Source: a virus. From it: a DNA stretch of 22,548 nucleotides. The number at the start of each line of letters is the position of its first letter. Position 1 is the first letter of the stretch. The notes under the pieces are model-generated. The model was not told the DNA's origin, did not search any database, and worked only from the letters and a program-made list of their open reading frames with translations. Below are positions 2,120-20,400 of this stretch, piece by piece. The position numbers were made by a program, and so were the translations under genes. The stretch spans positions 1-22,548 of IMG/VR virus record IMGVR_UViG_3300020401_000103. One strand, written 5' to 3'.

Positions 2120-2121
2120 AG

Positions 2122-5100
2122 ATGTCCGAAAAAAGAGTTAAGTTAAATCAGATAGTAAAAAATCAATTACCCTCTTATGTTCAAGAGGATTTTCCACTTG
2201 TTGGTGAATTTTTGAAGTTATATTATACTGGACAGGAATATCAGGGTGGGCCAGTTGATTTAGTAAACAATATTGACTCTTATATCAAATTAAGTGAATG
2301 TGGGAATATAATAAAAAATACAAATACAACAAGATTTACGGGAATTTCAACATCAACCATTTTTGTATCGAATACAGAGGGATTTCCTGATAGTTATGGA
2401 TTAATAAAAATAAATGATGAAGTAATAACATATGAAAGTAAAACAGACACCACTTTTGTAAACTGTATAAGAGGATTTAGTGGAATCACATCATTTACAG
2501 ATCCCTCAGATCCTGAAAATTTAATTTTTTCAGAATCTACGTCAGATGATCACGAAAATAATACAACAGTTGAAAATTTAAGTGTTTTATTTTTAGATCA
2601 ATTTTTAAAAAAAGCAAAAAAACAGTTTTTATATGGTTTTCAAAAAGATTTAAATGAAAATTTAAATTCTCCTCAATTTATACGTCAATCAAAAGACTTT
2701 TATTCAACAAGAGGAACTGATGAATCTTTTAAAATATTATTTGGAGCTTTATATGGTGAAAAAGTGGACATTATTCGTCCAATTGAGAATGTCATATCTC
2801 CATCAAACGCTAATTATAAATTAACCAGAGATTTAGTTGTTGAACCTCTTTCAGGTAATCCGGAGGATTTAATTGGTAGAACTCTTTTTCAAGATAATTT
2901 TGAAAATGTTTCAAAAGCATATGCTCCTGTTGGTGCTGTTGAAAGATCTACAGTTGGAATCGTAACGAATACTTATTTTAAATTAAGTTTAGATGCTTCA
3001 AGAGCCATACCAGACGGATCGACAAGTTTGATATACGGTGAATTTTCACCTCATGCAAAAACAAAAATTATCGGTCAAGTAGGTATCGCTCAAACTTACA
3101 TTGATGTTGATTCTACTTTAGGGTTTCCTAACTCAGGAACTCTGACATTTTTGTATAAAAATGGAACAACTGGAATTTGTACTTACGCTGAAAAAACAAT
3201 TAACCAGTTTCTAGGAATTAATACCACAGGAATAACTAATACAATTACTGATAATACATCTATTGATCAAAACACGTTTGCCTACTCGCTTGATAGAAAT
3301 GGAAATATTGATGTTCAAGTAAAAATTAGAAATGTTTTAGAGGATTTTATAATTCCACCACAAGTTAATAATCAAAAAGCTGGTGGTAAGATAAAGATAA
3401 AAAATTTAGGAAAAATTGGTAGTAACGTCAAAGAAAATAATTGGTTATTTAATACTGCTCAAAGTTATGTCGTAAAATCTCTTGAAATAGTAGACTCTGT
3501 TAATAACACTTTCAAATTAATTACTCAAGATAAAAATATATTAAAAATAGGTGATCAAATAACAACACACGAAACATTTGCCTCCGGATCGCAATGGGGT
3601 GATAAAATTACTGAATTTTTTGATCCAGTATCAAATAAAATTTACACGGTTACAGATGTTTTTAACGATACCACTTGTCTCATCTCAGGAACAGGTATCG
3701 ATAATCCAGAAAAAATTACAAAGGTAACGAGAAGAATATCTAAAGCGAATTCAGATATACATGAAAATTTAAATATATTTTCTGCGAATGTACAAAATGT
3801 TTATTTAAAACCTGATGGAGGATTAGTTAGAGGTATACCATATTATGGCCCACAACATGAGCACCCTTCAAAAGGCACGATCATGGTTGGTAAAAACCAT
3901 GTTCCATTCTATCACGATACAGTAGTTCCTATAGAGGGACAAAACAAAATTTATGTCGCATCAGCTTCTGTTCCATTTTCAGGCGTTACAAAGTTAAATC
4001 CAAAAACACAAAAATTCACTTTTAGTGGAACATATAATAAAAATGATGAAGAAATAAAAATATCAGATCAAGTTGATCACAATTATTTCACAGGTGATGC
4101 CGTTTATTATACACCTCAAAAAGCAACCGTTACAAGGAGAGGGCCTGGCGGTACAACTTTTACACAAACCTTTGTCCGCAATCAATTATTTGCAGAGGGT
4201 TTATACTATGTAAAAAGAATAGACTCAAATACTGTTAAATTTGCAAAAAGTCAATCAGATATTTATAGTGAAATTTTTACAAAGGTTATTCCAGAAGGTG
4301 GAGTTGATAATATAAAAATTGAAAATAATACAATTGAAAAATTTTATTTTAAAGGTAAAAATATAAAGTCACAAAAAATAATAAGAGAGATTGCTCTTCC
4401 TAGAAGTGACGAAAAAAAATATGATACACTTCCCGGTTATACTGGAATTTTGATTGATGGTGTTGAGATATACAACTATAAATCAAAAGACAAATGTTAT
4501 TATGGAAAATTAAATTCAGTTGATATATTAAACGGTGGTCAGAATTATGATGTTATTAATCCACCAGTATTCTCAGTTGAAGATTCTGTAGGAAGTGGAG
4601 CCACAGGATCAGTCTCCGTTAGAGGCTCATTAAAGGATATTCGTATTTTAGATTCTGGTTTTGATTATGTTGACGTTCCTATCATAAAAATTACAGGTGG
4701 AAATGGTTCAGGTGCAAGTGCTATTGCTAAATTAAATTCCAAACCTCATAGTGTAATATTTAATGGTGATGGTGTTGGTCTTGGAACAGTTACAATAGAC
4801 TCAGCTGGTATTAATACATCTTCAATAGGGTTTACTACATTTCATAAGTTTAGAAGCGGTGAGAGAGTCGTATACGACCCTCTGGGGGGCATTCCAGTTG
4901 TAGGACTATCAACAGATTCATTGTATTATGTCTCTTCAGTATCAGAGTATACAATACAATTGCATAAAAATTATGATGATGCAACATCGGGTATTAATAC
5001 AATATCATTTACAAACTTTGGATCAGGTGTACAAGCATTTAGATCATTAAATGGTAAAGCTATTTTAAGTTCTATAACAATATTGGATGGTGGATCTGGA

Positions 5101-8100
5101 TATGAGAATAAAAAAAGATCATGTGAACCAACAGGTATAAACACATCTCTAAATTCCATTCAAATAGAAAATCATGATTATAAAGATGGTGAGATAGTTC
5201 AATATACTCCAGATGGTACATCTGTTGATGGATTGTCTTCAGATAAAGATTACTACGTCACTGTTATAAACAAGGACTCCTTTAGATTATCACCCGTTGG
5301 AGTGGGTACAACAACTAAAGATTTTTACTACAAAACAAAACAATTTGCAGAATTTAGAAATATAGGTTTTGGAACTCATAGTTTTAATTATCAACCAATT
5401 TCAGTTGAAGTATTAGGAAGAGTTGGTATATCATCAATTGAAGGAAAAACATTTGAAGCTAATATTCAACCTATTTTTAGGGGTGAAATTACATCAGTAG
5501 ATTTAACTCAAACTGGAGTTGGATATGGTGCTTCAGAAATATTGAATTTTAATAGGGAACCAAAAGTAAGTCTATACTCTGGGAAAGACGCTGTAATAAC
5601 ACCTGTGGTTGCTAATGGAAGAATAGTTGACGTAAGCGTTAGCTATGGTGGTACTGATTATAATTCACCACCAGATTTAGTGGTTTTAGGACTTGGAACC
5701 GACGCAAAATTAGTGCCTGAATTAAACTCTTCAGGAAATATTGTCTCTGTTAATATTCAAAGTGGTGGTATTGGATATGGAGTAACATCAACAACAGTAA
5801 GAGTTGATGCATCTGGACAATTTGTCAAGTTTAGGCCAAATGTTCAAACATGGACAGTGAATGAGTATAGTAAAAATTTACTTAATTTAAATGATGATGA
5901 TGTTTTCATTACACAACCCACAAATCGTTTATTTGAACTTCAATGCTCTTATGTCTACGCACCAAGAAATTTAAGAAGAATACTCTATGCAAATGATCCC
6001 GATGGTAATACATTATATGGAAAAAAAGATCTGAGTTTAATTAATAGCGTTGAAACCACAAATGATCAACACTCGCCGATAATAGGTTGGGCGTATGATG
6101 GTAATCCAATTTACGGGCCATATGGTTACTCATCAAAAACAGGTGGATCTATTGTTCAATTAAAGTCAGGTTATGTAGATGAGACAATTAAAAAGAGTAA
6201 TAGACCACCCACAAGTGTTTTCCCACCTGAGTTTTTTATTGAGGATTTTACATATAAAGAAACCACAGATGAAAGTGTTTTAGATGAAAATAATGGAAGA
6301 TTCTGTGTCACTCCAGAATATCCAAATGGAGCATACGTTTATTTTGCAACTTTAGATTCGACTGCAGCTTCAGATGGAATATTTAAAAATTTCAAAAAAC
6401 CAAAGTTCCCATATCTTATCGGAAATCAATATAACTCAAAACCAAATAATTTTAATTTTAGTAGATTATCAAATCAAGAAAATTTTGATTTAAATGAGTC
6501 AAATGCGATAAGAAATACATATCCATATTCACTTAATAAAGATTTTAGTGGATATGATTATGTAAGAGAGCCTTACAAATTCATAAACCAAGATACAAAT
6601 ATAGATTTTGCAAAAAAAGGAGAAGTCAATAGTGTTGGTATCACTTCAGGTGGTTCAAACTATCAAATAAATGATAAAGTCGTATTTGACCCAAATGTCG
6701 ATAGTTCTTTCAAAGCATCAGGAAAGGTATCGTTAATAAGTGGTGTATCTTTAACTGATATAAACACAACAAATACAAAAATTTCTGATATTGAATTTTA
6801 TCGCGAAAGTAGTAATTCATTTGTAGGTATAGCTTCGACAGCGATAAATTTAAGAGATAACACTGCTGTAAAAATTGGTGGACTTACTACAACAACATCA
6901 TTTTTACAAGGTAGATATAATATTGGTGTTAGTTCATCCAAACTTATTTTAACACAGGGTATCGGAACTGATGGAGTAACTGGGATTGTAACCTTCGTCA
7001 ATGTCGCTGGTGATTTAGATAATATACAATCTAATGATGTATTTAAAATTGGTATAGGTGCATCTACAGAACAGTTAAAAGTGCTTAATGTAGATAAAAT
7101 ATCATCGAGATTAAGAGTTTTAAGACTATTAAATGTGGGATCAACAGCTCCTGTTGGTTATTCACATACAGCGTCAGAAACATTAACTGAGATACCAAGG
7201 AAGTTTACTATAAACACTGGTGTCACCACTACATTTACATCAAGGAGAAACAAAGAAATATTCTTTAATCCACAGGAATCAATTGGATTAGATCCTCGTG
7301 CTGGAGTTGGTATTGGGACAACGATAAGTTTTTCAAATCCGGGAGCAGGTATATCTTCAGTTTTTGTACCACCCAATTCTATTTTCTTACCAAATCACCA
7401 ATTAAGAACTGGTGATAGAGTTATATACAAAATAAACTCTATAGGAAATGAAGAGAGATCGCCATTAGTTAAATTTTTTGAGGCTGCACCAACTGTTAAT
7501 ACCTTCTTGGGAGTTGGAGTCACATTATTTGTTGCGAGACAATCAGTTGATTTTATAGGTTTAACCACTACACAAGTTGGTGTGGGATCGACAGGCCAGT
7601 TTGTCGGCATCGGTGTTACCTTGTTTGATTTAGTTCATTTTATAGATGCTGGAATAGGGGATAATCATAGTTTAAAAACTCAATTACCTAACATTGTTAA
7701 GGGTGAATTGGAGAAAAATCTGGTAAGTGTTGTAGGATCAGGAACACATGGTTTACAGACAAATGACACGATTACAATTGATGTAAAATCCGGAATTACA
7801 ACAACTGTGACCGTAAAATATAACAAAGATAATAGAAAAGCAGTTTACAATCCTTTAGATTTTGTAGCAGCAGGTGTGGTTACGTCTGGTGTTGCAGTTA
7901 CAACAACAAATCGTATACCAAGCACAATTGAAATAAAAGATCATAATTTAACAACAGGCCAAAAAGTAATTCATACATCTAATTCTCCAGCATTAGGTTT
8001 AGTTAATAATAAAGAATATTATGTTTACGTGGTTAATTCTGATAAACTTAAATTAGTTGAAAATCAATATGAAGTAACTCAATCATTACCAAAATTTGTT

Positions 8101-11100
8101 GGAATTACATCAAGAGGAGATGGAACATTATCACCAGTAAATCCTCCTCTTAAATTTTATAAAAATTCAACAGTAAATTTTGATTTATCAGACTCATCTT
8201 TATCATACACACAAAGCTCGACGCAATATCCTGCTTTTTATTTTGAACTTTATAAAGATGATAGGTATATTAATATATTTGAAACATCAGGGTCGTCATC
8301 TACATTTGAAGTATCAAGAACAGGGACAATTGGTGTGACTGGTGATGCAAAACTCACATTAAATATTAAAGATGACACACCAACAACTTTATTCTATAAA
8401 TTAAGTCCTGTAAATACCCCCGATAATTTACCTCAAAATAAAGAGATAGTTAATGATACCAGTGTTCTTCTAAACAATCAAATAATTATTGAATCAAGTA
8501 AATATAATGGAACTTTTAAAATCGTATCAACTGGGTCTACAACTTTTACTTATGATATAGATAATTATCCAGAAAACGGATCATACAGCACATCAAACTC
8601 AAAATTAAAGTTTTCTACAATATCAACATCAGCATATGGTAGTGTTCAGGAAATAAACATTACAGATGGTGGAGGTGGATACAAGAATTTACCCGGAATC
8701 ACAACGATAACGTCAGATTTAGGCGTAGGTGCCGTTATAGAGCCTTTCTCTGTCACAGTTGGTAAACCAACTAAAGTAACTTTACAAAATATTGGTTTTG
8801 ATTATCCAAATGATCGCACTCTTAAACCTGAAGCATTATTCCCACAAGTTTTAAGAATCACACCTTTAACAGGATTTAAGTCGATAGGGATAACTTCATT
8901 TGGTAAGGGATATATTACAAATCCAAGTCTTGTTGTTTTAGACGGTGTTACTAAAAAAGAAATTGGAGATGTTGATTTAAGGTACAATCCCGATGAAGAA
9001 ATTGTAGAGGTTTTAGAAAATTCAGAATCTCTGAATAATGCTCCACCAACTATTATTCCTGTTGGTAATCCAAACGGAATTAGAGTTGAAAATTTAAGTT
9101 ATGATAATGATACACAATTAGTCACAGCGACTGTTGCAAAAGCATTTAGTGGCACTTTAGATTCGATAGGAAATTATATTGATCCATTTCCATTCAGTGT
9201 TGGTGATAAAATATTAGTTGAAAATGCAAGTGTAGGTTTTGGATCAACAGCATCCGGATATAACTCATCAGGTTATGATTATGCACTATTCCCAGTAACT
9301 GCTGTCACACCAAATTATGGTGCAAAAGGAACTGTTACTTATAGTATGGCTGCTTTCTTGGAAAAAAATGTTGATTATCCCGGAGTTTTTAATACGGTTC
9401 AGTCAGCAGCGATGTTGATACCTAGTAAATGGTTCCCACAATTTGATATTGTTCTACAACCAAATGATTTTAGAATAGATGATGAGGTAGAAAGTTTTAC
9501 ATCAGATGGTACAAGGGTGACAGGTAATGTTTCTGATTGGAACAATTCTAGTAAATATTTGACTGTTGAATCATCAAGAAAATTTGAAATTGGTGGAATA
9601 GTAGAACAAATAAAATTCAGAGGCGAAAGAATATCTAGTAATGAATATTCATCACCTACTGGAGCTAAAGGTCTTATTAAAGAAATAATATCTTTCAACT
9701 CAAAATATAACTTAAATTATTATTCTTTAAGAGAAAATGGATGGGAATTTAATACTGGATTTTTAAATGATGAGACACAGAGAGTTCATGATAATAATTA
9801 TTATCACGCTTTCTCCTATTCTATAAAATCAAAAGTTCAATTTGATGAGTGGAAAGATATTGTAGGAACTTTAAATCACACATCAGGATTTAAAAAGTTT
9901 AGTGATTTTCAAGTGGAATCTCAACTTCCTGAAGAAAATTCTGATGATCTAGTAGTAAGACCTGTAGATGGAACAACAATAACAGTTGAGATATTAGGAA
10001 AAGAGAGTCTACAATCGTTTCACAATTTTGATTTAGCATCAGAAAATTATTTTGCTGCCGTCAAACCATATTCCGATGAAATTACTTTTAAATCTAGAAT
10101 ATTAACAGACTATTCTGAATCAGTATCAAACAGAGTTCTTACAATTGATGATTTTAGTAATTTATTTAACAATAATGCTAGATCAACTCCCTTTGCTGAT
10201 GTATATCGAAATAGGTTAGCGGATGGAAGAACACAGTTCTTTGTGGCTTATATTCAAGACAGATTATTTACTGGTGAAAGGCAAGTAATGATCATAAACA
10301 CACTACATGATACAGGTCGTGGTTTAACCATGATGAATCAGTATGGTGCGGTTGAAACTACTTTAGATTTAGGATCATTTGACTATGTAATTGACGGTGT
10401 TGAATCAGTACTAAGATTTTTCCCACATAAATTTACAATTAATGATTACAACGTAATTTTATGGTCATATCAAATTGATTCTAATCAATTAGGACTCTCA
10501 ACAACAAATGTTGCTACTGCAACAACATCATTACCTGTTTTTGATCCAACAACATCAGAGGGACTAAACGGTGGTCTTGTAAGTATACAATCAACATGTG
10601 TGTCTGTTGCTGGTGGTGTGGCAGGAACAGTGTTTACACTAGCTGGTATTGGAACAACAGTTTCAGGACATAGATCTGCAAAACTATTTGTAAGCGTTGA
10701 AGGTAGTGATGGAAGTGTAGAATACGATCAAGTTAGTGTCATACATGATGGCACAAATGTTGGATTCCAAGAGTATGGTCAATTAACAATTCACTCGTCG
10801 GATGCTTACTCATCAACAGGTAATATAGGCACTTTCTTCCCATTGATGGTGGGTAATGATCTTGTAGTTAGATATACTCCAGAGGCAGGACTAACCACCG
10901 CTTTCGTTAATGCAACTGCAATAGGTATCGCTACGGAAGGATATATTGGCATTGGATCTTATGATATGGCTTATGCTGAAATGTCTGCACAAAGCACAGG
11001 TATTTCTTCATCATCATCACCTGTTGCAGTGGGTATTGCAAGTTATTCAGATCAATATGATGCTGCATATTGTATAGTTCAAATCGCTGATAAGCTCAAC

Positions 11101-14100
11101 GGTAGTTATCAAATATCTGAAGTGATGGTGATTGATGATTATTCAGATGATGATAACGTTTACTTAACAGAATTTGCTGATGTTAGAGTGGGAACAGCAT
11201 ATACAGAACTTGGAGTAATTAGTGGTCGAAGAACATCTGATAATGTTACTGAACTTACATTTTTACCAAATGTTGGTATTGGTGTGTCAATTACAACTTT
11301 CTTAAATTCATTAAGAGTTCAAGAAAATACAGAGTTGCAACCATCTGATGCCACAAGAGAAGTTGGTGGTGAATCAGTAAAAGATTTGAAAAATGCCTCT
11401 CTTGAAAGTGGTTTTGCAATCTATGAAGGAACATTATCATCAATAAAAACTAACTTTGCACTAGAGCATAGAGGTGATCCAATATTTAAAAAACCATATG
11501 ATGGTTCATCATCATCAATTGTTGACACTTCTACGAATATTATAACTCTACCTAATCATTTCTTTGTAACTGGTCAAGAAGTGTCTTATGGACATACAGA
11601 TTTTAGAACTGGTATATCATCTGCTATTGGTATAGCTGCAACTAATTTCCCAACAGTTGGTATAGGAACCACTACTCTTCTACCATCATCTTTATTCGTA
11701 ATCAAAAAAGGTGATAATAAAATTCAATTAGCAAGAACAGCGGAAGATGCATTGAAAGAAATCGCAGTCCCTCTAGATTTAACTCACGTTGGTATTGGTA
11801 CATCTCATTCGTTCACAATGAAAGATGCTAATACAAAAGTATTGATCGCAGTTGATAATTATCTACAATCACCAATAGCTGGCACCTCAGTAACAACAAC
11901 TCTTGATAGGTCAATTGATAAAGCTCAAGATGTTATTTTCTTCTCTGGAATCACGTCATTCTTTGGTGCTGATCATGTTCGAGTAAGCAGTGGTAATACA
12001 AGTGAGGTAATGAAAATACTTTCTGTTGGAATAGGTACAACTAACGGCATTAAGGTGAGAAGAAACAGATTAGGAACAACCATTGCAGGATTCCCAACGG
12101 GATCTTTAGTTGAAAAAATACGTGGTAATTACAATATCGTTGAGAATGAAATAAGTTTTATCGAAGCACCTCCCGGTAAAAATCCTATTGGTTCTATCAC
12201 TAATCCCCCTGATTCAAGAGACTTTGTAGGCATTACAACTTCATCAAGTTTCCAAGGAAGAGTGCTTACTCGATCTGGTATCACTGGAGGTGAAAATGAA
12301 ACATATAGCACTAATCATCTTTATGATGATTTAACATCTGATTTTAACGGAAGAAAAAAAGAGTTTGCACTTACCGTTGGTAAAGCACAAAAAACCGGAA
12401 TTTCAACACAACAAGCTTTTGTGCTTATTAATGGTGTATTACAAGCACCGGGATCAAATGGAGATTTTAATTTAACAACTGTTGGTTCCGGAACAACAAT
12501 CACATTCACTGGAGCTGCAAGTTCAGTCTCTAGAGATGTAAATACCGCATCAATACCTGTGGGTGGAGTAATAATTTCTGTATCATCAACCGATGGTTTT
12601 GGATATCAACCATTAGTGTCTGCTGGTGGAACTGCAGTGGTATCATTGGCAGGAACAATTAATAGTGTAAGTATTGGAAACACAGGCTCCGGTTATAGAG
12701 CAGATTTACAAACTGTTTCTGTTGGTTTACAAACTGAGGGTTTTGATCAATCTGGTATAACAACTATTGGTCTTGCTAACGTAAGTGGTGGTCATGTAAC
12801 TAGCGTAACTATCACTAATCCACAATTCTTCTATAAACCAAGAGATATTTACAATGTTGGATATTCTTCAATCACTGGTATAACAACTATAACCACTGCA
12901 TTTGCACATAATCTATCTGTTGGTAATGAAGTAGTAGTATCTGGTATCGCATTCACTTGTGACTACGCCCCAGCTGTTGGAGTTCAAAGTGCAAACTATG
13001 ATAACACCACTGGTATCATGACAGTAACTACACTCGCTGCTCATGGATTATCTACAACTGGTAAGAGTAGTGATGTAATATTAACTGGTTTGGCGTTTAC
13101 ATGTGGACTTGGTGCTACTGTAAATCATATCTACCCAAGAAACAGAGATCGTTTCTTTGACACTGCAATATCAGTTGCATCAACTACAGCAACCACTATA
13201 ACTTTAGATGTATCTAAATCTCCTATCGGTCAACAATATACTCACAGATTCATAGGTGCTGCAAGTAGTGCAGTGATACAAGGTGGTGATTATTCTCATA
13301 CATTCCGATATGCCCTTGCAAACGCAGTGACAACAGGTGTTGGAACACAATTCACACCAACTAATGCGACATATAATGCATCAACTGGAGTATTCGTAAT
13401 AGATATACCAAATCATGGACTATCTACAAACGATACTGTTGGTATTGGAACGAGTTCAATAGTGTTCTCATGTGAAATGGATCACTATGGAAGCGATCAT
13501 CCATATCCAAGACCAACTGATCCAATAGCTGGCATACAAACTGCGATTATCGCTAAAACTACTAACACTATAACAATAAACGTAGGTAAGTCTGAATTAA
13601 ACTTCTATGATGTCTCTGACGCTACCTACGCTGCTGATACTGGTGTATTAGTCTTGACCATAGGTGCACATACATTATTACCCGGAAGAAGTATCAAACT
13701 GAAGAAAGAATCATTAAGATTTACATGCTCTAAGAATAACTACGCAACTCAACACAAATATCCAAGAGAGGGTGATCCTATATTTGATGGTACACCAGTT
13801 GTAGGTGTTGCAAGTGCAACTCAATTTACTATCAATGCCGGTATATCCACTGTTCCAACACAATATGTTTCTGGTGGATTTATACAACCAGCATTAATTG
13901 CACCAAGAGGTAATAATAACTCAGCGAGTGGCCAAGATCCAGCGTTCGATGGTGCTTCAGTGTTAAGAGTTTTGAGTGCTACAGAATTTGAAATCGATAG
14001 TGGAATATCAACAAGAGCACATCTCTATGCCAGAGGTGGTAGAGTTGATCAATTGACAAAAATTGTTATTGATGATCCTCTATCATATAGTGATATGCAA

Positions 14101-15921
14101 TTAATTCATAGCACATCTAGTCCCGGAACTTCTGGAACTGAAGCAAGAGCTGATGTTGTAGTTAGTCAAGGATCAACAATTATTGATTTTAAAATAACAA
14201 ATACTGGGTATGGATATGGAATAAGTGAGATATTAACACTACCTCTTACTGGAGCTACTGGGATTCCAACAACACCTAGTTTTGTTGATAACAGAGAATT
14301 GAAAATCACAGTGGATGATGTTGCGAGTGATCAATTTAGTGGATGGTCAGTTGGTGAGTTACAGGTATTGGATAATTTCCAAAATTTATTTGATGGTTCT
14401 AGAAGAACTTTCCCACTATCAGTTGGTGGAGATACTTTATCAATTCAAGCAGCACCCGGTTCAACAGTGACTGTTCAAGACACTTTATTTGTCTTTATCA
14501 ATGACATACTTCAGATTCCCGGAGAGTCATATACATTCTTGGGAGGTAGTAATATCACATTTGATGAAGCACCAAAATTTGAGGATTCATTAAAAATATT
14601 ATTCTATCGTGGAACTGGTGGTGCCGATGTTATAGACAGAGATGTAATTGAGACTGTTAAAGTTGGAGATGATTTAACTTTAGGATATTCAAGATCTTTA
14701 GATCAACAAAAATGGTTGCAAGAGAGTAAGAGAGGGGTTCTTGAAATTACATCATCAAACACCACAGACACAACAACATATGATGGGCCAGGAGTTTTTG
14801 AAGATACAAGAGTCTTTAGACCACTCAAATGGACAAAACAAACTGAGGATAAATTTATAGAGGGTAAATTAGTTACAAAAGATAGAGATTTATATAAAGG
14901 AAACATATCCCCTACAACTAATCCAATTCAAACTGTGGGTATTGGAACAACAGTTGTATATGTGGCTGGTGCTAGACCATTCTTCAATGCAAAGAATGAA
15001 AACTCTGTATCTACAGAATTCCAAAAAAATATCGTCATTGTAAATAATGTTGAGAGATTGGCAGCTGCAGCAACTGCTGTTGTTTCTATTGCAGGAACGA
15101 TTTCCTCAGTGGCAATATCAACTGGAGGACGTGGATATGATAGTGCACCAGTTGTAACTATCGGAAATCCCGTTGGTCTAGGGACAACTGCCCGTGCAGA
15201 GGCAACAGCAACAATATCGAACGGCGTGGTCACAAGCATCACAGTATCAGTTGCAGGAACAGAATATAGTCAAGAGAGTCCACCTGTTGTTTTAATAGGT
15301 GCCGATCCTGTTCTGGAAGAAAATAATACCGTTTTATCATATGCTGGTGATAGTGGTGTTATTAGCGGTATTGGTTCAACAACAATTTCTGGAGTGTCTA
15401 ACCCATGTTTAATATTTGATCTTGTTATACCTTCAGATTCATTCTTGAGAAATTCAGATATAACTCAAGGGACTACAGGATCTGGTGCAAATAGTGGTAT
15501 TGTAACATCTGGACTACAAGTTGGAGATTACTTCATAGTAACTAATTCTAATGTTGATGTTGGAATTGGATTCTCATCAGTTGATTATGACGGGGGTTCT
15601 GTTGTTGGAGTGGGAACAACCTTTATAGATAATGTGTATCGAGTGGCTGCAGTTAATTATTCTCACGTCACCGATGCTGTTGGTTTTGGTCAAACATCCG
15701 TAACTCAAGTGACAGTGGGCGTTGGAACTGTAAATCCAAATTTAGTTGGTCTCGCTGGTGGTGAATTTTATGGTGAGTATAGTTATGGTATTATGAGATT
15801 GAGTGAAAGAAACACTGTTCGCTCATATCCAGTTAATACTTCTAACGGAATTAGTGGTATTTTAACAGGGCCAATCATAAGAAGGAAGTCATTCTTAAAA
15901 ACTCAAAGTTATTCCACATAA
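2122..15921 (+). CDS. Giant gp7-like baseplate wedge / virion structural protein (4599 aa)
   Basis: One open frame of 4599 codons in the place of T4 gene 7, between genes 6 and 8. Residues 8-50 (NQLPSYVQEDFPLVGEFLKL onward) and 186-260 (DFYSTRG at 192-198, then FKILFGALYGEKVDI and DLIGRTLF) resemble the C-terminal third of T4 gp7 (DFYSTKG, YKFLFKVLYNEEVEI, DLVGQTIY). A second gp7-like segment lies at 2556-2593 (NNYYHAFSYSIKSK, then W, then H-x-x-GFKKF). The rest is threonine-, glycine- and serine-rich beta-repeat sequence: two GFP-type modules (50-110, 310-370), H-x-x-x-x-G/YYV modules, G-x-G-Y repeats, a YHYH-type domain (about 1310-1440), a duplicated domain (2850-3065), a conserved module at 3274-3480, FTC/YPR repeats (3611-3900) and two INGVLQ modules. 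No signal peptide or membrane segment is visible. T4 gp7 has 1032 residues, so this is over four times longer. The role in the wedge is inferred from the two segments and gene order; usual databases would probably say only virion structural protein. Confidence 0.82.
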   Translation: MSEKRVKLNQIVKNQLPSYVQEDFPLVGEFLKLYYTGQEYQGGPVDLVNNIDSYIKLSECGNIIKNTNTTRFTGISTSTIFVSNTEGFPDSYGLIKINDEVITYESKTDTTFVNCIRGFSGITSFTDPSDPENLIFSESTSDDHENNTTVENLSVLFLDQFLKKAKKQFLYGFQKDLNENLNSPQFIRQSKDFYSTRGTDESFKILFGALYGEKVDIIRPIENVISPSNANYKLTRDLVVEPLSGNPEDLIGRTLFQDNFENVSKAYAPVGAVERSTVGIVTNTYFKLSLDASRAIPDGSTSLIYGEFSPHAKTKIIGQVGIAQTYIDVDSTLGFPNSGTLTFLYKNGTTGICTYAEKTINQFLGINTTGITNTITDNTSIDQNTFAYSLDRNGNIDVQVKIRNVLEDFIIPPQVNNQKAGGKIKIKNLGKIGSNVKENNWLFNTAQSYVVKSLEIVDSVNNTFKLITQDKNILKIGDQITTHETFASGSQWGDKITEFFDPVSNKIYTVTDVFNDTTCLISGTGIDNPEKITKVTRRISKANSDIHENLNIFSANVQNVYLKPDGGLVRGIPYYGPQHEHPSKGTIMVGKNHVPFYHDTVVPIEGQNKIYVASASVPFSGVTKLNPKTQKFTFSGTYNKNDEEIKISDQVDHNYFTGDAVYYTPQKATVTRRGPGGTTFTQTFVRNQLFAEGLYYVKRIDSNTVKFAKSQSDIYSEIFTKVIPEGGVDNIKIENNTIEKFYFKGKNIKSQKIIREIALPRSDEKKYDTLPGYTGILIDGVEIYNYKSKDKCYYGKLNSVDILNGGQNYDVINPPVFSVEDSVGSGATGSVSVRGSLKDIRILDSGFDYVDVPIIKITGGNGSGASAIAKLNSKPHSVIFNGDGVGLGTVTIDSAGINTSSIGFTTFHKFRSGERVVYDPLGGIPVVGLSTDSLYYVSSVSEYTIQLHKNYDDATSGINTISFTNFGSGVQAFRSLNGKAILSSITILDGGSGYENKKRSCEPTGINTSLNSIQIENHDYKDGEIVQYTPDGTSVDGLSSDKDYYVTVINKDSFRLSPVGVGTTTKDFYYKTKQFAEFRNIGFGTHSFNYQPISVEVLGRVGISSIEGKTFEANIQPIFRGEITSVDLTQTGVGYGASEILNFNREPKVSLYSGKDAVITPVVANGRIVDVSVSYGGTDYNSPPDLVVLGLGTDAKLVPELNSSGNIVSVNIQSGGIGYGVTSTTVRVDASGQFVKFRPNVQTWTVNEYSKNLLNLNDDDVFITQPTNRLFELQCSYVYAPRNLRRILYANDPDGNTLYGKKDLSLINSVETTNDQHSPIIGWAYDGNPIYGPYGYSSKTGGSIVQLKSGYVDETIKKSNRPPTSVFPPEFFIEDFTYKETTDESVLDENNGRFCVTPEYPNGAYVYFATLDSTAASDGIFKNFKKPKFPYLIGNQYNSKPNNFNFSRLSNQENFDLNESNAIRNTYPYSLNKDFSGYDYVREPYKFINQDTNIDFAKKGEVNSVGITSGGSNYQINDKVVFDPNVDSSFKASGKVSLISGVSLTDINTTNTKISDIEFYRESSNSFVGIASTAINLRDNTAVKIGGLTTTTSFLQGRYNIGVSSSKLILTQGIGTDGVTGIVTFVNVAGDLDNIQSNDVFKIGIGASTEQLKVLNVDKISSRLRVLRLLNVGSTAPVGYSHTASETLTEIPRKFTINTGVTTTFTSRRNKEIFFNPQESIGLDPRAGVGIGTTISFSNPGAGISSVFVPPNSIFLPNHQLRTGDRVIYKINSIGNEERSPLVKFFEAAPTVNTFLGVGVTLFVARQSVDFIGLTTTQVGVGSTGQFVGIGVTLFDLVHFIDAGIGDNHSLKTQLPNIVKGELEKNLVSVVGSGTHGLQTNDTITIDVKSGITTTVTVKYNKDNRKAVYNPLDFVAAGVVTSGVAVTTTNRIPSTIEIKDHNLTTGQKVIHTSNSPALGLVNNKEYYVYVVNSDKLKLVENQYEVTQSLPKFVGITSRGDGTLSPVNPPLKFYKNSTVNFDLSDSSLSYTQSSTQYPAFYFELYKDDRYINIFETSGSSSTFEVSRTGTIGVTGDAKLTLNIKDDTPTTLFYKLSPVNTPDNLPQNKEIVNDTSVLLNNQIIIESSKYNGTFKIVSTGSTTFTYDIDNYPENGSYSTSNSKLKFSTISTSAYGSVQEINITDGGGGYKNLPGITTITSDLGVGAVIEPFSVTVGKPTKVTLQNIGFDYPNDRTLKPEALFPQVLRITPLTGFKSIGITSFGKGYITNPSLVVLDGVTKKEIGDVDLRYNPDEEIVEVLENSESLNNAPPTIIPVGNPNGIRVENLSYDNDTQLVTATVAKAFSGTLDSIGNYIDPFPFSVGDKILVENASVGFGSTASGYNSSGYDYALFPVTAVTPNYGAKGTVTYSMAAFLEKNVDYPGVFNTVQSAAMLIPSKWFPQFDIVLQPNDFRIDDEVESFTSDGTRVTGNVSDWNNSSKYLTVESSRKFEIGGIVEQIKFRGERISSNEYSSPTGAKGLIKEIISFNSKYNLNYYSLRENGWEFNTGFLNDETQRVHDNNYYHAFSYSIKSKVQFDEWKDIVGTLNHTSGFKKFSDFQVESQLPEENSDDLVVRPVDGTTITVEILGKESLQSFHNFDLASENYFAAVKPYSDEITFKSRILTDYSESVSNRVLTIDDFSNLFNNNARSTPFADVYRNRLADGRTQFFVAYIQDRLFTGERQVMIINTLHDTGRGLTMMNQYGAVETTLDLGSFDYVIDGVESVLRFFPHKFTINDYNVILWSYQIDSNQLGLSTTNVATATTSLPVFDPTTSEGLNGGLVSIQSTCVSVAGGVAGTVFTLAGIGTTVSGHRSAKLFVSVEGSDGSVEYDQVSVIHDGTNVGFQEYGQLTIHSSDAYSSTGNIGTFFPLMVGNDLVVRYTPEAGLTTAFVNATAIGIATEGYIGIGSYDMAYAEMSAQSTGISSSSSPVAVGIASYSDQYDAAYCIVQIADKLNGSYQISEVMVIDDYSDDDNVYLTEFADVRVGTAYTELGVISGRRTSDNVTELTFLPNVGIGVSITTFLNSLRVQENTELQPSDATREVGGESVKDLKNASLESGFAIYEGTLSSIKTNFALEHRGDPIFKKPYDGSSSSIVDTSTNIITLPNHFFVTGQEVSYGHTDFRTGISSAIGIAATNFPTVGIGTTTLLPSSLFVIKKGDNKIQLARTAEDALKEIAVPLDLTHVGIGTSHSFTMKDANTKVLIAVDNYLQSPIAGTSVTTTLDRSIDKAQDVIFFSGITSFFGADHVRVSSGNTSEVMKILSVGIGTTNGIKVRRNRLGTTIAGFPTGSLVEKIRGNYNIVENEISFIEAPPGKNPIGSITNPPDSRDFVGITTSSSFQGRVLTRSGITGGENETYSTNHLYDDLTSDFNGRKKEFALTVGKAQKTGISTQQAFVLINGVLQAPGSNGDFNLTTVGSGTTITFTGAASSVSRDVNTASIPVGGVIISVSSTDGFGYQPLVSAGGTAVVSLAGTINSVSIGNTGSGYRADLQTVSVGLQTEGFDQSGITTIGLANVSGGHVTSVTITNPQFFYKPRDIYNVGYSSITGITTITTAFAHNLSVGNEVVVSGIAFTCDYAPAVGVQSANYDNTTGIMTVTTLAAHGLSTTGKSSDVILTGLAFTCGLGATVNHIYPRNRDRFFDTAISVASTTATTITLDVSKSPIGQQYTHRFIGAASSAVIQGGDYSHTFRYALANAVTTGVGTQFTPTNATYNASTGVFVIDIPNHGLSTNDTVGIGTSSIVFSCEMDHYGSDHPYPRPTDPIAGIQTAIIAKTTNTITINVGKSELNFYDVSDATYAADTGVLVLTIGAHTLLPGRSIKLKKESLRFTCSKNNYATQHKYPREGDPIFDGTPVVGVASATQFTINAGISTVPTQYVSGGFIQPALIAPRGNNNSASGQDPAFDGASVLRVLSATEFEIDSGISTRAHLYARGGRVDQLTKIVIDDPLSYSDMQLIHSTSSPGTSGTEARADVVVSQGSTIIDFKITNTGYGYGISEILTLPLTGATGIPTTPSFVDNRELKITVDDVASDQFSGWSVGELQVLDNFQNLFDGSRRTFPLSVGGDTLSIQAAPGSTVTVQDTLFVFINDILQIPGESYTFLGGSNITFDEAPKFEDSLKILFYRGTGGADVIDRDVIETVKVGDDLTLGYSRSLDQQKWLQESKRGVLEITSSNTTDTTTYDGPGVFEDTRVFRPLKWTKQTEDKFIEGKLVTKDRDLYKGNISPTTNPIQTVGIGTTVVYVAGARPFFNAKNENSVSTEFQKNIVIVNNVERLAAAATAVVSIAGTISSVAISTGGRGYDSAPVVTIGNPVGLGTTARAEATATISNGVVTSITVSVAGTEYSQESPPVVLIGADPVLEENNTVLSYAGDSGVISGIGSTTISGVSNPCLIFDLVIPSDSFLRNSDITQGTTGSGANSGIVTSGLQVGDYFIVTNSNVDVGIGFSSVDYDGGSVVGVGTTFIDNVYRVAAVNYSHVTDAVGFGQTSVTQVTVGVGTVNPNLVGLAGGEFYGEYSYGIMRLSERNTVRSYPVNTSNGISGILTGPIIRRKSFLKTQSYST
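2134..2901 (+). other. gp7-like N-terminal core region of the giant protein (first half)
   Basis: Residues about 5-260 of the giant. Two stretches, 8-50 and 150-260, resemble the T4 gp7 part that runs from its LPDSY-like segment through DFYSTKG to DLVGQTIY. Between them, at about 50-150, is an inserted module with the pattern T-x-x-I-F-V-S-N-T-x-GFP (GFP at 87-89) followed by IKINDEVITY and CIRGFSGIT. A relative of this module recurs at about 310-370 (GFP at 334-336). The key conserved string is DFYSTRG at 192-198 (bases 2695-2715). The comparison is by recalled sequence, so the boundaries are approximate. Confidence 0.7.
4072..8085 (+). repeat. H-x-x-x-x-G / YYV modules in the giant protein
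   Basis: A recurring module inside the coding sequence: an H followed four or five residues later by G-(D/E/Q), a V-x-Y strand, then a variable loop, G-L, YYV and a hydrophobic strand ending in L. Copies seen: DHNYFTGDAVYY about 652 with LYYVK at 694; FHKFRSGERVVY about 908 with LYYVS at 934; NHDYKDGEIVQY about 1017 with YYVT at 1044; NHQLRTGDRVIY about 1758 (no YYV half); DHNLTTGQKVIH about 1940 with YYVY at 1966. Further first halves occur at about 3145 (NHFFVTGQEV), 3606 and 3763. They are protein-level repeats; the DNA copies have diverged. Confidence 0.75.
6061..6450 (+). other. Degenerate YHYH-type domain in the giant protein
   Basis: Residues about 1314-1443. HSPIIGWAYDGNPIYGPYGY (1317-1336) is the typical opening of YHYH-family domains (GFALDGFPIYGPYGY). 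The closing part is also recognisable: LDENNGRFCVTPEYPNGAY at about 1387-1405 and FPYLIG ending at 1434, compare LDECNG, PEFPNGTYHYH and PYFIG of the family. At the position of the naming YHYH motif the sequence is YVYF (1405-1408), so the histidines are missing. The family is widespread in bacteria with uncertain function; in marine phages related segments sit in large tail proteins. Confidence 0.65.
9787..9900 (+). other. gp7-like core region of the giant protein (second half)
   Basis: Residues 2556-2593 read H-D-N-N-Y-Y-H-A-F-S-Y-S-I-K-S-K, then DEWKDIV, then LNHTSGFKKF. The recalled T4 gp7 sequence has, shortly after its DFYSTKG part, INRSRSYYVMKIKSNLPSSRW, an SDVIRFVHP segment and GFGF. 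The shared order is a tyrosine pair, a K-S turn, a tryptophan, a V, a histidine and GF. The preceding stretch (about 2340-2555) is not repetitive and contains LIPSKWFPQFDIVLQ and GAKGLIKEI, so it may belong to the same folded core. Confidence 0.55.
10669..11316 (+). repeat. Tandem duplicated domain of about 90 residues in the giant protein
   Basis: Two related domains lie side by side at residues about 2850-2935 and 2978-3065. Both follow the order: a strand ending in V-x-(V/I), then YDQVSVIHD or ISEVMVIDD, then an F-x-E-(Y/F)-x-x-(L/V) strand, then G-x-(F/I), and a final L-x-(Y/F)-x-P strand (VVRYTPEAG and LTFLPNVG). Protein similarity is moderate and DNA similarity low, so the duplication is old. 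Confidence 0.6.
11941..12560 (+). other. Tail-associated module with first INGVLQ domain in the giant protein
   Basis: Residues about 3274-3480. The order is SEVMKILSVGIG, VRRNRLGT, RGNYNIVENEISFIEAPPG (3334-3352), NPIG, RDFVGITTSSSFQGRV, then LYDDLTSDFNGRKKEFALTV and FVLINGVLQAPG (ending near 3444) with a closing ITFTGA. This order is recognisable from large structural proteins of marine T4-like phages. The last part is the common tail-fibre module in which FxG..xxF.L is followed by INGVLQxPG and a T-x-I-x-F strand. A second copy of that last part is at about 4085-4160 (FDGSRRTFPLSV, FVFINDILQIPG, NITFDEAP). Confidence 0.6.
12952..13830 (+). repeat. FTC / YPR repeat block in the giant protein
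   Basis: Four F-(T/S)-C motifs with cysteines at residues 3613, 3661, 3784 and 3869. The last three are each followed by an H and a Y-P-R motif (HIYPRNRDRFFDT, HPYPRPTDPIAG, HKYPREGDPIFDG), and two of these by a T-x-T-I-T-(I/L)-(D/N)-V-x-K-S strand (about 3693 and 3806). Each F-(T/S)-C is preceded by an H-x-L strand (AHNL, AHGL, NHGL, AHTL). Spacing is uneven (48, 123 and 85 residues), so some copies are shortened. The positions of C, H and Y-P-R suggest a conserved fold; whether the cysteines pair or bind metal cannot be told. Confidence 0.7.
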
Positions 15922-17497: not shown

Positions 17498-20400
17498 ATG
17501 GCTCAAACCACCAATTTAAACGTATCGCCATATTTTGACGATTTTAATGCAGATGACAACTACTATAAGGTGTTGTTTAAGCCTGGTCTTCCTGTTCAAG
17601 CAAGAGAATTAACTGGTTTACAATCCATATTACAAAATCAAATCGCAAGATTTGGTCAACATGTTTTCAAAGAGGGTGCAAAAGTCATTCCCGGAAATAC
17701 ATCATATTATAATGATTATTTTTGCGTAGAATTAAATAATGAATATCTAGGTGTAACTGTCGAGTCTTATATAGATCAATTGTTAGGTCGTAAGATTGTA
17801 GGATTGACTTCAGGTGTTACTGCTGTCATACAGAAAATTCTTAAATCTTCTGATTCAGAAAGAAATAATTTAACAATTTATATAAAATATCACTCATCAC
17901 AAGCATCTAATAATGAAGGAGGAACTTTTGCTGATGGAGAATTATTAGCAGCGGACATAGACATAATTTCAGGCCCAGAAAATAGCACATTCATACCAAG
18001 TGGTGAGGCATTTGCATCTACCATAACTTCAAATTCAACATCCACTGGATCATCTTTCTCCATATCTGAAGGTGTATATTTTATAAGAGGCACGTTTGTA
18101 AACGTTAGCACAGATACTATATTATTGAATCAATATTCAAATACACCAACTGGTAGAATTGGATTAAGAGTTTTAGAGGAAACAATAAACGCTGATGAGG
18201 ATTCAACATTAACTGACAACTCAAAAGGATTTAATAATTTTGCAGCTCCGGGTGCAGATAGATTAAAAATAACTTGTTCCTTGTTTTTCAAAGGCATAGA
18301 TGATTTAAATGATAATGATTTTGTTGAATTAGCAAGTGTTAGAGATGGAGTATTAAAAACAAGACCACAGGCAAGTGATTTAAACATACTTGGTGATGAA
18401 TTAGCTAGAAGAACGTTTGCAGAATCTGGAGATTACACAGTAAAACCATTTTCAATTTCAGTCAAAGAATCATTAAACAATAAGATAGGTAATAATGGTG
18501 TGTATAGCTCTGGTCAGGCAACAGAGAGAGGATCAATCGCTAGTGAAGATTTAGCTCTTTATCAAGTCTCTGCAGGTAAAGCATTTGTAAAGGGTTACGA
18601 AATTAAAAAAATCGGATCGACATTTTTAGACGCATCAAAACCTAGAACAACAAAACTACTTCAAAATCAAAGAGTTAACTATAATACAGGTGCAACTGTT
18701 CGAGTCAATCGTGTTTTTGGACTACCACAAGTTGGATACGGAAATACTCAAATTGTAGCATTGAGAAGTGAAAGAATTGGTATACACACTGGTGAGCCTG
18801 CAGGAGAGGAAATAGGTTTGGCAAGAGTTTACGATTTTGCTTTAGAATCGGGTTCTTATAATACAACAAATAGTAATATCAATCAATATGATATTTCTTT
18901 GTTTGACATTCAAACTTTCACAAAATTAACTTTAAATGAAACTCATACTTTAACAACTCCAACATTTGTTGAAGGAAAATTTAGTGGTGCAAGTGGGTTT
19001 TTAAGATCAGCTGTTAGTGCCAGCACATCTTTAGTTGTTTATGAAACACAGGGTGAATTTGTAGTCAATGAACCACTCATTTTTGATGGTATTGAAAATT
19101 CAAGAGTATCTGTTGCCGTTACTGCTTTTGGTGTGTCTGACGTAAAATCAATATTTGGTGGGCCTGGAATATCAAACCAAGCAGGTGATAATAATGTGGG
19201 ATTTGCAAGGACATTTAATTCTGATTTAATTCAAAAAAATTCTTTCTTATTTGGTGATGGAACAATTACTGTTGTAAACGGAACAACAGGATTAAGCACA
19301 GTTACAAGTTCAAACCCACAGTTTCCCGGCAAAATTAAAGTTGGTAGTCTTCTTAGTTTTGGTGGATTAAATAATGATCTTAAATCAATAGTAAGAGTTG
19401 TTGAAAAGGGAACAAGTAGTGTTTCAGTCACAGGTGTGACTACAGTTGCTGGAGTTACAGAGGGTCAATTACCATTAATTAATTCTGTTGGTGTCACAAC
19501 TGTTGCTGGTGAATTGGGTTTTTTAAACACACCAGATTTAACTCTTCTTGGCAGCACATTTGAAAAATCTCTTGATAATACTCTATATACTCAATTAACT
19601 CGAAGAAATGTCTCAAACGTTGATTTATCAAATACAACTTTAACAATTAAAAAGACATTTGATGTAACCATAGCTGCTGCAACAAATAATTTATCCGCAA
19701 CTATAAGCACAGGAAATAATGAAACCTTCTTACCATTTGATGATGATAGATATTCATTGGTAAGAAACGTTGATGGTGTAACAGAAATTTTAACAGCAGA
19801 TAAGTTTGAATTTTCATCTGGTAACAATACTCTACAAATAAACAATATAGGAGAAACTCTCACATCAAACGCAACTGCTACTTTGATAGCCACTGTTGCA
19901 AAGGTTAAACCTACAGCAAAAATAAAAAGAAAGAATAGAGTAAATTCTTTACTCGTTGATAAATCAAAATTATCTACATCAGGTGTTGGTGCTACAACTT
20001 TAAATGATGGACTGACATTTGGAAGTTACCCTTTTGGAACTCGTGTTCAAGATAAAAAAATATCATTAAACACACCTGATGTTATCAATATTTTAGGTAT
20101 TTTTGAATCACTTGATAATAATGATCCATCTGCTCCAAAGATGACAATACTCGCTTTAGATAATGAAAGTGGAAACGCCATCGATCTCATTATAGGAGAA
20201 AAGATAACTGGTCTTACATCAGACGCAGTTGCCATAGTCGCTGAAATATTATCAGATTCACAAATTAGTATAATACCTCTAAATGACAATGCCTTTAGTG
20301 ATAATGAAAGTATAAGATTTGAGGAATCAGAAGCATCTGCAATCGTAAGTTTAACTGAATTTCCAAGTAAAAATATATCTGCTAATTATAAATTTAATAC

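Follow-up and report, generated by a model that had tools for sequence, protein, structure and literature searches.

The 22,548-base virus record analysed here (IMG/VR record IMGVR_UViG_3300020401_000103, positions 1 to 22,548; this whole stretch is called the window) encodes a giant form of the baseplate wedge protein gp7, in which the gp7 wedge core is almost certainly present and split by an insertion of ∼2,260 residues. We read this core, which comprises ∼240 conserved residues, as one fold opened at two places, with a ∼2,000-residue protein fused behind it, and regard the giant as the gp7-type subunit of the (gp6)2-gp7 wedge; we give this reading a probability of roughly 0.85. By sequence comparison, three pieces of the giant protein are homologous to short gp7s and, via these, to T4 gp7, and they presumably pack together in the window protein. 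A preliminary description of the window, made from the sequence alone, had proposed a core split within a single giant protein, and the analysis bears this out: profile matches at residues 158–280 and 2540–2601 flank the large insertion.

The split is visible in both motifs and profile matches. In the giant protein, DFYSTRG starts at residue 192, YYHAFSYSIKS at 2560, and HTSGFKKF at 2586. T4 gp7 has DFYSTKG starting at 733 and HPVG at 884, a distance of 151 residues; the equivalent distance in the window is 2,394. Hidden Markov models (HMMs) of the N- and C-halves, built from four non-giant gp7s (those of Ochrobactrum phage OC (OspOC), BUCT-ZZ01, Melnitz-2, and phiM19), match window residues 158–245 (independent E-value, i-E, 3.9e-17) and 2532–2602 (i-E 2e-16), respectively. 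The C-half HMM aligns with three further window stretches, every one below zero bits. As controls, 200 shuffles and the reversed protein gave best domain i-E values of 0.036 (N-half) and 2.7e-4 (C-half). A full short-form HMM of 289 positions, built from eight gp7s of 400–631 amino acids (aa) (six from IMG/VR, OC, and Nitratidesulfovibrio phage SRB7757), finds three ordered pieces at residues 5–55, 158–280, and 2540–2601 (Table 1), with a best shuffle i-E of 8.4e-4. Because the core is found as three collinear pieces, two insertion sites can be defined, at residues 56–157 and 281–2539; the first of these is the third, smaller insertion that the preliminary description had put at about 50–150. 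On our reading, site 1 separates the first helices from the DFYxxxG helices, and site 2 falls within domain V or directly behind it, ahead of the C-terminal beta-alpha-beta half. On the independently made PHROG profiles, the OC gp7 (631 aa) aligns its C-half with phrog_2885 positions 2398–2464, and a natural short gp7 of 449 aa from IMG/VR (L015) aligns its N-half with positions 167–252, each in two stretches in all.

Direct searches of the PDB were too weak to carry the link to T4, which was therefore made through short gp7s. As a single sequence, residues 1–300 match T4-type gp7s at E 3.9e-4 and 4.5e-4, the latter being T4 gp7 (186–257 on 727–788), and the whole protein yields a single match, to a KP1-type gp7, at an E of 0.018, which is too weak. 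Profile–profile comparison (hhalign) of eight short gp7s with six T4-like gp7s gave a probability of 98.8 and an E of 1.4e-16, continuous over T4 ∼645–896 and thus over both halves; this route connects the C-half with T4 gp7 865–896. This alignment upholds the earlier claim that two window segments resemble the C-terminal third of T4 gp7. A profile search, which the preliminary description had named as a possible refutation, was favourable through the short natural gp7s that bridge both halves, and empty when the C-half was searched directly. Nothing in the core corresponds to T4 residues before ∼644 (block A matches 644–676 weakly, i-E 0.001, and the hhalign match starts at T4 645), so the T4 N-terminal domains are gone, as had been suggested, and residue 5, where the core starts, corresponds to T4 ∼645. 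Since the short gp7s lack these domains too, we take the N-terminal ∼640 residues as a feature of the T4 lineage, not as defining for gp7. A MAFFT alignment of T4 gp7 and four gp7s of short or medium length was left unused, since it misplaced the C-half of Melnitz-2 and phiM19.

The relatives speak against another origin for the C-terminal motif (YYxxFSYxIxS ... HxxG), namely that it is a free-standing virion module and the giant a gp7 N-half fused to an unrelated protein, the two folding independently. In PHROGs, the label 'head and packaging' is given to the related giant families 701, 4406, and 19630, and the C-half of the window lacks a direct T4 match, as such a fusion might. However, both halves occur in 260 open reading frames (ORFs), 172 of them distinct, and are collinear in 172/172. 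Among 5′-closed ORFs in our loci, a non-random sample fetched with gp7 queries, none holds the C-half alone except the second ORF of one broken contig (L179). In the shortest gp7s, moreover, just 39–88 residues lie between the two HMM matches, and the alignment of both halves with T4 gp7 is unbroken. We consider a fused free-standing module extremely improbable. The N-half stands alone in five ORFs that are intact at the 3′ end: that of L179 and four T4-like gp7s, which are counted here because the short-form C HMM is too weak for them.

An opened core also accommodates a wide range of sizes. From DFY to HxxG the distance is 150 residues in Acj9, 151 in T4, 173 in OC, 275 in BUCT-ZZ01, 466 in Melnitz-2, and 879 in phiM19; among the giants it is 2,294 in S-SM2, 2,303 in SynMITS9220M01, 2,394 in the window, and 2,794 in S-RIM2, whose motif reads HPAS and was positioned by offset. 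P-SSM2 lacks the DFY string and is omitted from this series. The natural intermediates lie between gp6-type and gp8-type genes (phiM19, 1,007 aa; OC, 631 aa; T4, 1,032 aa) or directly after gp6 (BUCT-ZZ01, 607 aa; Melnitz-2, 896 aa). Gaps between half-HMM matches span 39 to 2,686 residues, with one protein at 700–1,000. Of 173 proteins (the 172 plus the window), both sites were sized in the 167 in which three reference positions could be located; the remaining six were excluded. More than 1,500 extra residues lie at site 2 in 22 of these 167 proteins, among them that of the window, and each of the 22 carries at least 60 extra residues at site 1 as well; the only other protein with a site-1 insert of at least 60 is that of Melnitz-2. 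In S-RIM2, site 1 reaches 605 residues. The IMG/VR giants are mostly near kin, since they were fetched with the window's own N-terminus. Two medium inserts lie behind domain V: in Melnitz-2, domain V occupies 236–302 and the C-half is at 619, and in phiM19 these are at 149–204 and 937. A scan of the window for copies of domain V found none at an i-E of 0.01, but it also missed the domain V start seen by the longer HMM and so carries little weight.

Structure prediction for a short relative points to the same family. An AlphaFold2 model of residues 1–286 of L015, computed from 74 alignment rows, has a mean predicted local distance difference test score (pLDDT) of 83.5 and a predicted template modelling score (pTM) of 0.51, with the C-half as a strand-helix-strand at 242–273. 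Foldseek returned 649 PDB matches for this model, of which three reach E <= 0.001, all gp7 chains (9f4a, 5iv5, and 5hx2). VIA-align places model residues 1–274 on T4 gp7 639–895 with a Z of 11.0 over 237 aligned residues, at a root-mean-square deviation (rmsd) of 16.2 Å; because this rmsd is high, the model does not fix the arrangement of the segments. Further VIA-align matches are a phi812 baseplate chain (Z 8.8, 190 residues), A-1(L) (7.8), and P1 (6.8), where a Z under 8 may reflect a common arrangement only. Other matches were set aside: those to elongation factors are limited to the domain V barrel, which we regard as showing a widespread beta arrangement; a Streptomyces injection-system wedge is level with the elongation factors at Z 5.6 and is no evidence; and PDB matches to cholera toxin chains (E 0.059 and above), polybromo, and A49R were judged to be chance.

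Several observations weigh against our reading of the giant. The C-half (residues 2441–2640) found no match in the PDB and has no gp7 Pfam match, T4 being reached through short gp7s only. Placed directly on T4, the C-half HMM is weak (i-E 8e-4 with the search-space size Z set to 1; best shuffle 3.9e-3), and the short-form HMM gives 5.1e-3. The good structural model is that of a relative, and its pTM and rmsd, given above, leave the packing of the halves presumptive. The full-length L015 model is poor (pLDDT 61.3), its Foldseek and VIA-align matches being the same gp7 chains. None of the 172 distinct proteins has a gap of 1,000–2,000 residues, which leaves a break in the series between medium and giant forms.

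The natural gene borders separate the extension, and not the core halves, from the rest of the protein. In the lake Synechococcus phage DSL-LC02, the first gp7 gene stops three residues past the C-half, and the extension is encoded separately by the gene behind it (1,432 aa), after which comes a wedge-subunit gene in the gp8 place. Among seven IMG/VR loci fetched with the C-terminal end of the DSL-LC02 gp7, four (L375, L376, L377, and L378) have a gene that stops 3–5 residues past the core with an ORF of ∼1,430 aa behind it, two (L373 and L374) continue for 123 and 72 residues, and one (L379) encodes a medium gp7 of 1,081 aa. In all, five of eight loci of this split-gene type have the gene end 3–5 aa past piece C and the extension as the next gene; the giant gp7 genes with this border are those of L372 (9001–20847) and L375–L378. 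The gp7 of Synechococcus phage B23 breaks 436 residues past the core, and the remaining complete giants run on for 886 (L118) to 2,875 residues (S-RIM2). The window has an extension of ∼1,998 residues, in line with the 2,000 first reported. The core halves lie in separate ORFs in one contig only, L179 (two overlapping ORFs at 2977–5381); at this place L180 has one ORF. The two-ORF gp7 of L179 may be a natural break or a sequencing error. These borders indicate that the extension is separable while the core halves and the insert between them stay together.

They bear equally on the idea that the giant ORF encodes a precursor that is cut after translation, with core halves and modules becoming separate virion chains. 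Its size would suit a precursor, as would the separate extension gene of DSL-LC02 and some IMG/VR relatives, from which it follows that the extension need not be in cis. Yet a break between the halves was seen in L179 only, and L180 is intact there; a cleaved precursor seems very unlikely, if marginally less so than the fused module above.

Insert 2 is probably made of beta-rich modules, judging from its composition, and may form a surface decoration. One module belongs to the YHYH family (Table 1), whose domains PMC7824862 takes, on the basis of conserved histidines, as predicted metal hydrolases. From 80 loci, we aligned the module of the window and of the relatives in which the search string occurs; among 77 distinct sequences, the motif reads YAYF in 75 and YVYF in 2 (the window has YVYF), and a single histidine column is kept in more than half. 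Since the motif is altered in 77/77 and only one histidine column persists, YHYH-type catalysis looks unlikely here. A resemblance to domain I of gp18, the sheath protein of T4, is seen in insert modules of short and medium gp7s (L136, 3995–5506, and alignment A3); the best E for medium inserts is 0.0012, and PF22639 falls below its cut-off. The HMM domain V region matches the ORF 3′ of gp8, in the place of the DUF4815/VrlC gene, in L372 (22476–25793, i-E 1.6e-6) and L007 (18684–24542, i-E 9.8e-6), which suggests a module shared between the gp7 domain V region and the ORF downstream of gp8.

The core pieces are better conserved than the insert in some giants. SynMITS9220M01 shares 63, 61, and 60% identity with the window in pieces A, B, and C and 39–55% across insert-2 blocks, and S-SM2 67, 50, and 52% and 27–49%. 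In P-SSM2, piece B (31%) falls within the range of the insert blocks (28–40%), and S-RIM2 shows no contrast. Coverage of insert-2 blocks is 81–99% in SynMITS9220M01, S-SM2, and P-SSM2 and 44–98% in S-RIM2. Extension residues 3501–4000 (12622–14121), which hold four F[TS]C strings, are covered to 19% in SynMITS9220M01, 37% in S-SM2, 97% in P-SSM2, and 86% in S-RIM2. High blockwise coverage of insert 2 in three of four giants, unlike part of the extension, would suit inserts that serve as structural spacers, broadening or stiffening the baseplate without touching the host. Outward-facing modules agree better with how widely insert size varies at this one site and with the fibre-type modules of the extension, parts of which match the tail fibre protein families phrog_5342 and phrog_17885; neither argument is decisive, and we hold the spacer function to be unlikely.

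The preliminary description had further suggested that the giant replaces separate fibre proteins, and in this it was not borne out. Were the insert a receptor-binding apparatus in place of T4 gp10, gp11, and gp12, these families should disappear with it, and a survey of nine whole records is in part suggestive: the gp11 family (PF08677) is found in T4 and Acj9 only, and the gp9/gp10 N-domain (PF07880), found in T4, Acj9, S-RIM2, and Melnitz-2, is missing from S-SM2, SynMITS9220M01, and P-SSM2. The tail fibre matches of the extension point the same way. However, two phages with far smaller gp7s, OC and phiM19, also lack both families, which are therefore not lost in step with the giant insert; a PF07880 protein is retained in S-RIM2, which has the largest gp7 here (6,378 aa), and in Melnitz-2; and cyanomyophages have host-recognition clusters with tail-fibre-related proteins, according to PMC7029224. 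The Collar family (PF07484) is above its cut-off in phiM19, T4, and Acj9 only. Loss of PF08677 and PF07880 seems to follow lineage, not insert size, and replacement of the separate fibre proteins is in our view quite unlikely.

What role the inserts would play is best approached through simpler wedges. The T4 (gp6)2-gp7 wedge has its equivalent in (gp16)2-gp17 of phage XM1, which comprises a core bundle and a trifurcation region and attaches to the tail spikes through flexible parts of gp17 (PMC10457771). In phage A-1(L), the long tail fibre is held by the gp31B insertion domain and loop 129–151 of gp32, as given in PMC10966104. Core block B matches A-1(L) gp32 (191 aa) weakly at 97–138 (i-E 8.9e-4, Z of 1), which puts loop 129–151 between the end of block B and the C-half, in the place of domain V and insert 2. 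The equivalence rests on this match, structural ranges, and position; hhalign of gp32 gave a probability of 3% locally and nothing globally. On gp32, Tail_P2_I (PF09684) scores 18.7 bits, below its cut-off of 20.6. Chain 8kea_c is taken to be gp32 from its length (190 of 191 residues). In A-1(L) (L380), the 191-aa ORF at 11253–11828 taken as gp32 carries the annotation 'tail collar protein' in KU234533.

By this analogy, insert 2 would leave the wedge laterally, at the point where the tail fibre of a simpler phage is held, and the inserts could act as built-in fibre sockets and host-contact modules, in six copies per virion if there are six baseplate wedges as in T4; their movement might relay a binding signal to the gp6/gp7 core. 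We rate such a lateral fibre-socket or host-contact role as an even bet. It is tempting to go further and view site 2 as an expandable port, in which the fibre loop of small phages was filled by domain V, then by more modules, and finally, in marine cyanophages, by ∼2,260-residue host-sensing peripheral arms; we offer this as a tentative conjecture that is less likely than the role itself.

The features of the locus are collected in Table 1. The window contains four long ORFs, all on the plus strand, and their PHROG and Pfam matches place the giant gp7 gene between gp6 and gp8, as the preliminary description had it. The name VrlC for the DUF4815 protein is taken from the S-SM2 record. Minus-strand ORFs of 104 aa (14928–15242) and 100 aa (19591–19893) lie inside long plus-strand genes and are probably spurious.

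Table 1. Features of the window (nucleotide positions; residue numbers are those of the giant gp7).
Feature	Positions	Strand	Evidence or remark
gp6 baseplate wedge protein, 643 aa	188..2119	+	phrog_219 E 8.9e-189; PF21379 E 6.7e-17; wedge partner of gp7
Giant gp7, 4,599 aa, single ORF	2122..15921	+	phrog_2885 'baseplate wedge subunit', E 0
gp7 core piece A, residues 5-55, first helices	2134..2286	+	short-only HMM 4-54, i-E 8.8e-7
Insertion site 1, residues 56-157, ~100 aa	2287..2592	+	between HMM positions 54 and 60; size 98
gp7 core piece B, residues 158-280, DFYxxxG helices and domain V start	2593..2961	+	HMM 60-178, i-E 8.9e-14
Insertion site 2, residues 281-2539, ~2,260 aa	2962..9738	+	between HMM positions 178 and 225; ~2,216 extra residues
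YHYH-family module within insert 2, residues 1308-1415	6043..6366	+	PF14240 E 2.6e-21
gp7 core piece C, residues 2540-2601, beta-alpha-beta half	9739..9924	+	HMM 225-285, i-E 1.4e-10; C-half HMM 2e-16
C-terminal extension, residues 2602-4599, ~1,998 aa	9925..15918	+	separate gene in DSL-LC02 and some IMG/VR relatives
gp8 baseplate wedge protein, 516 aa	15941..17491	+	phrog_438 E 7.7e-163; PF09215 E 3.6e-12
DUF4815 ('VrlC') protein, open at window end	17498..22546	+	PF16075 E 5.7e-54; phrog_358

The identity of the protein as a cyanophage giant gp7 is already known to databases, as its phrog_2885 match (3,319 bits, best stretch profile 558–4178 of 4179) and its matching records make clear: the first 3,000 residues have matches in 472 of 50,697 phage records, of which 459 bear the name Synechococcus, Prochlorococcus, or cyanophage, and most among the matches listed have the annotation baseplate wedge initiator or subunit. 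Residues 58–158 align with profile positions 62–164. PF23786 scores 32.2 bits for residues 1–300 (cut-off 27) and 25 bits, below the cut-off, for the whole protein. Tail_P2_I does not match the window at E <= 0.1 or E <= 10, and at E <= 1 it also has no match in T4 gp7 or in nine further non-giant gp7s. Family, size, and annotation are thus known; new here are the anatomy, the spread in insert size at sites that stay fixed, and a gene border where the core ends. In the literature searched, outside which most subscription journals fell, we found no description of a split gp7 core.

The result also touches published statements and labels. According to PMC7029224, cyano- and pelagimyophages have no T4 gp7, which appears to be substituted by VrlC; contrary to this, the window has a gp7 core two genes from a separate VrlC/DUF4815 gene. 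PMC3037559 places gp7 in the non-cyanophage core and describes gp7, gp10, and gp12 as so divergent that they form up to nine clusters. Short gp7 cores match phrog_701, phrog_4406, phrog_19630, and phrog_3465, which carry the label 'head and packaging' or 'head closure Hc2' and are probably mislabelled gp7 families. A position-by-position anatomy is now available for the giant baseplate protein of T4-like cyanophages; the claim of gp7-less cyanomyophages is contradicted, and several gp7-related families are seemingly misfiled under head proteins. The periphery of the cyanophage baseplate becomes a testable question about the occupants of two defined sites in a widespread wedge protein.

Known systems can be ranged around the window protein by what they share with it. 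The ∼190-residue wedge chains of A-1(L) (gp32), phi812, and P1 are, like gp7, wedge subunits of contractile tails that VIA-align matches over most of the chain, but they are much smaller and would have no room for domain V. Alg12 of AlgoCIS has a gp7-like part described as an evolutionary hotspot, lateral, variable, and fibre-binding; the available part of its description mentions no insertion of thousands of residues. T4 gp7 (PDB 5iv5 and 5hx2) shares the homologous core in both halves and the order gp6-gp7-gp8; it differs in having ∼640 extra N-terminal residues, no site-1 insert (the match is continuous over T4 646–758), and ∼150 residues from DFY to HPVG, mostly domain V (PF21427 at 766–861). 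The short gp7s of OC and its IMG/VR relatives have the same core as the window, in OC between a wedge subunit and gp8, without the site-1 insert and with 39–88 residues between the half-HMM matches. The giant gp7s of Kyanoviridae (phrog_2885), annotated in GenBank as gp7 or baseplate wedge initiator in S-SM2 (4,156 aa), P-SSM2 (5,195 aa), and SynMITS9220M01 (4,067 aa), share family, length class, insertion sites, and neighbours with the window. Over the first 3,000 residues, their identity to the window is 47.6% (SynMITS9220M01), 39.9% (S-SM2), and 28.2% (P-SSM2), and they differ from it in modules gained or lost in the C-terminal extension.

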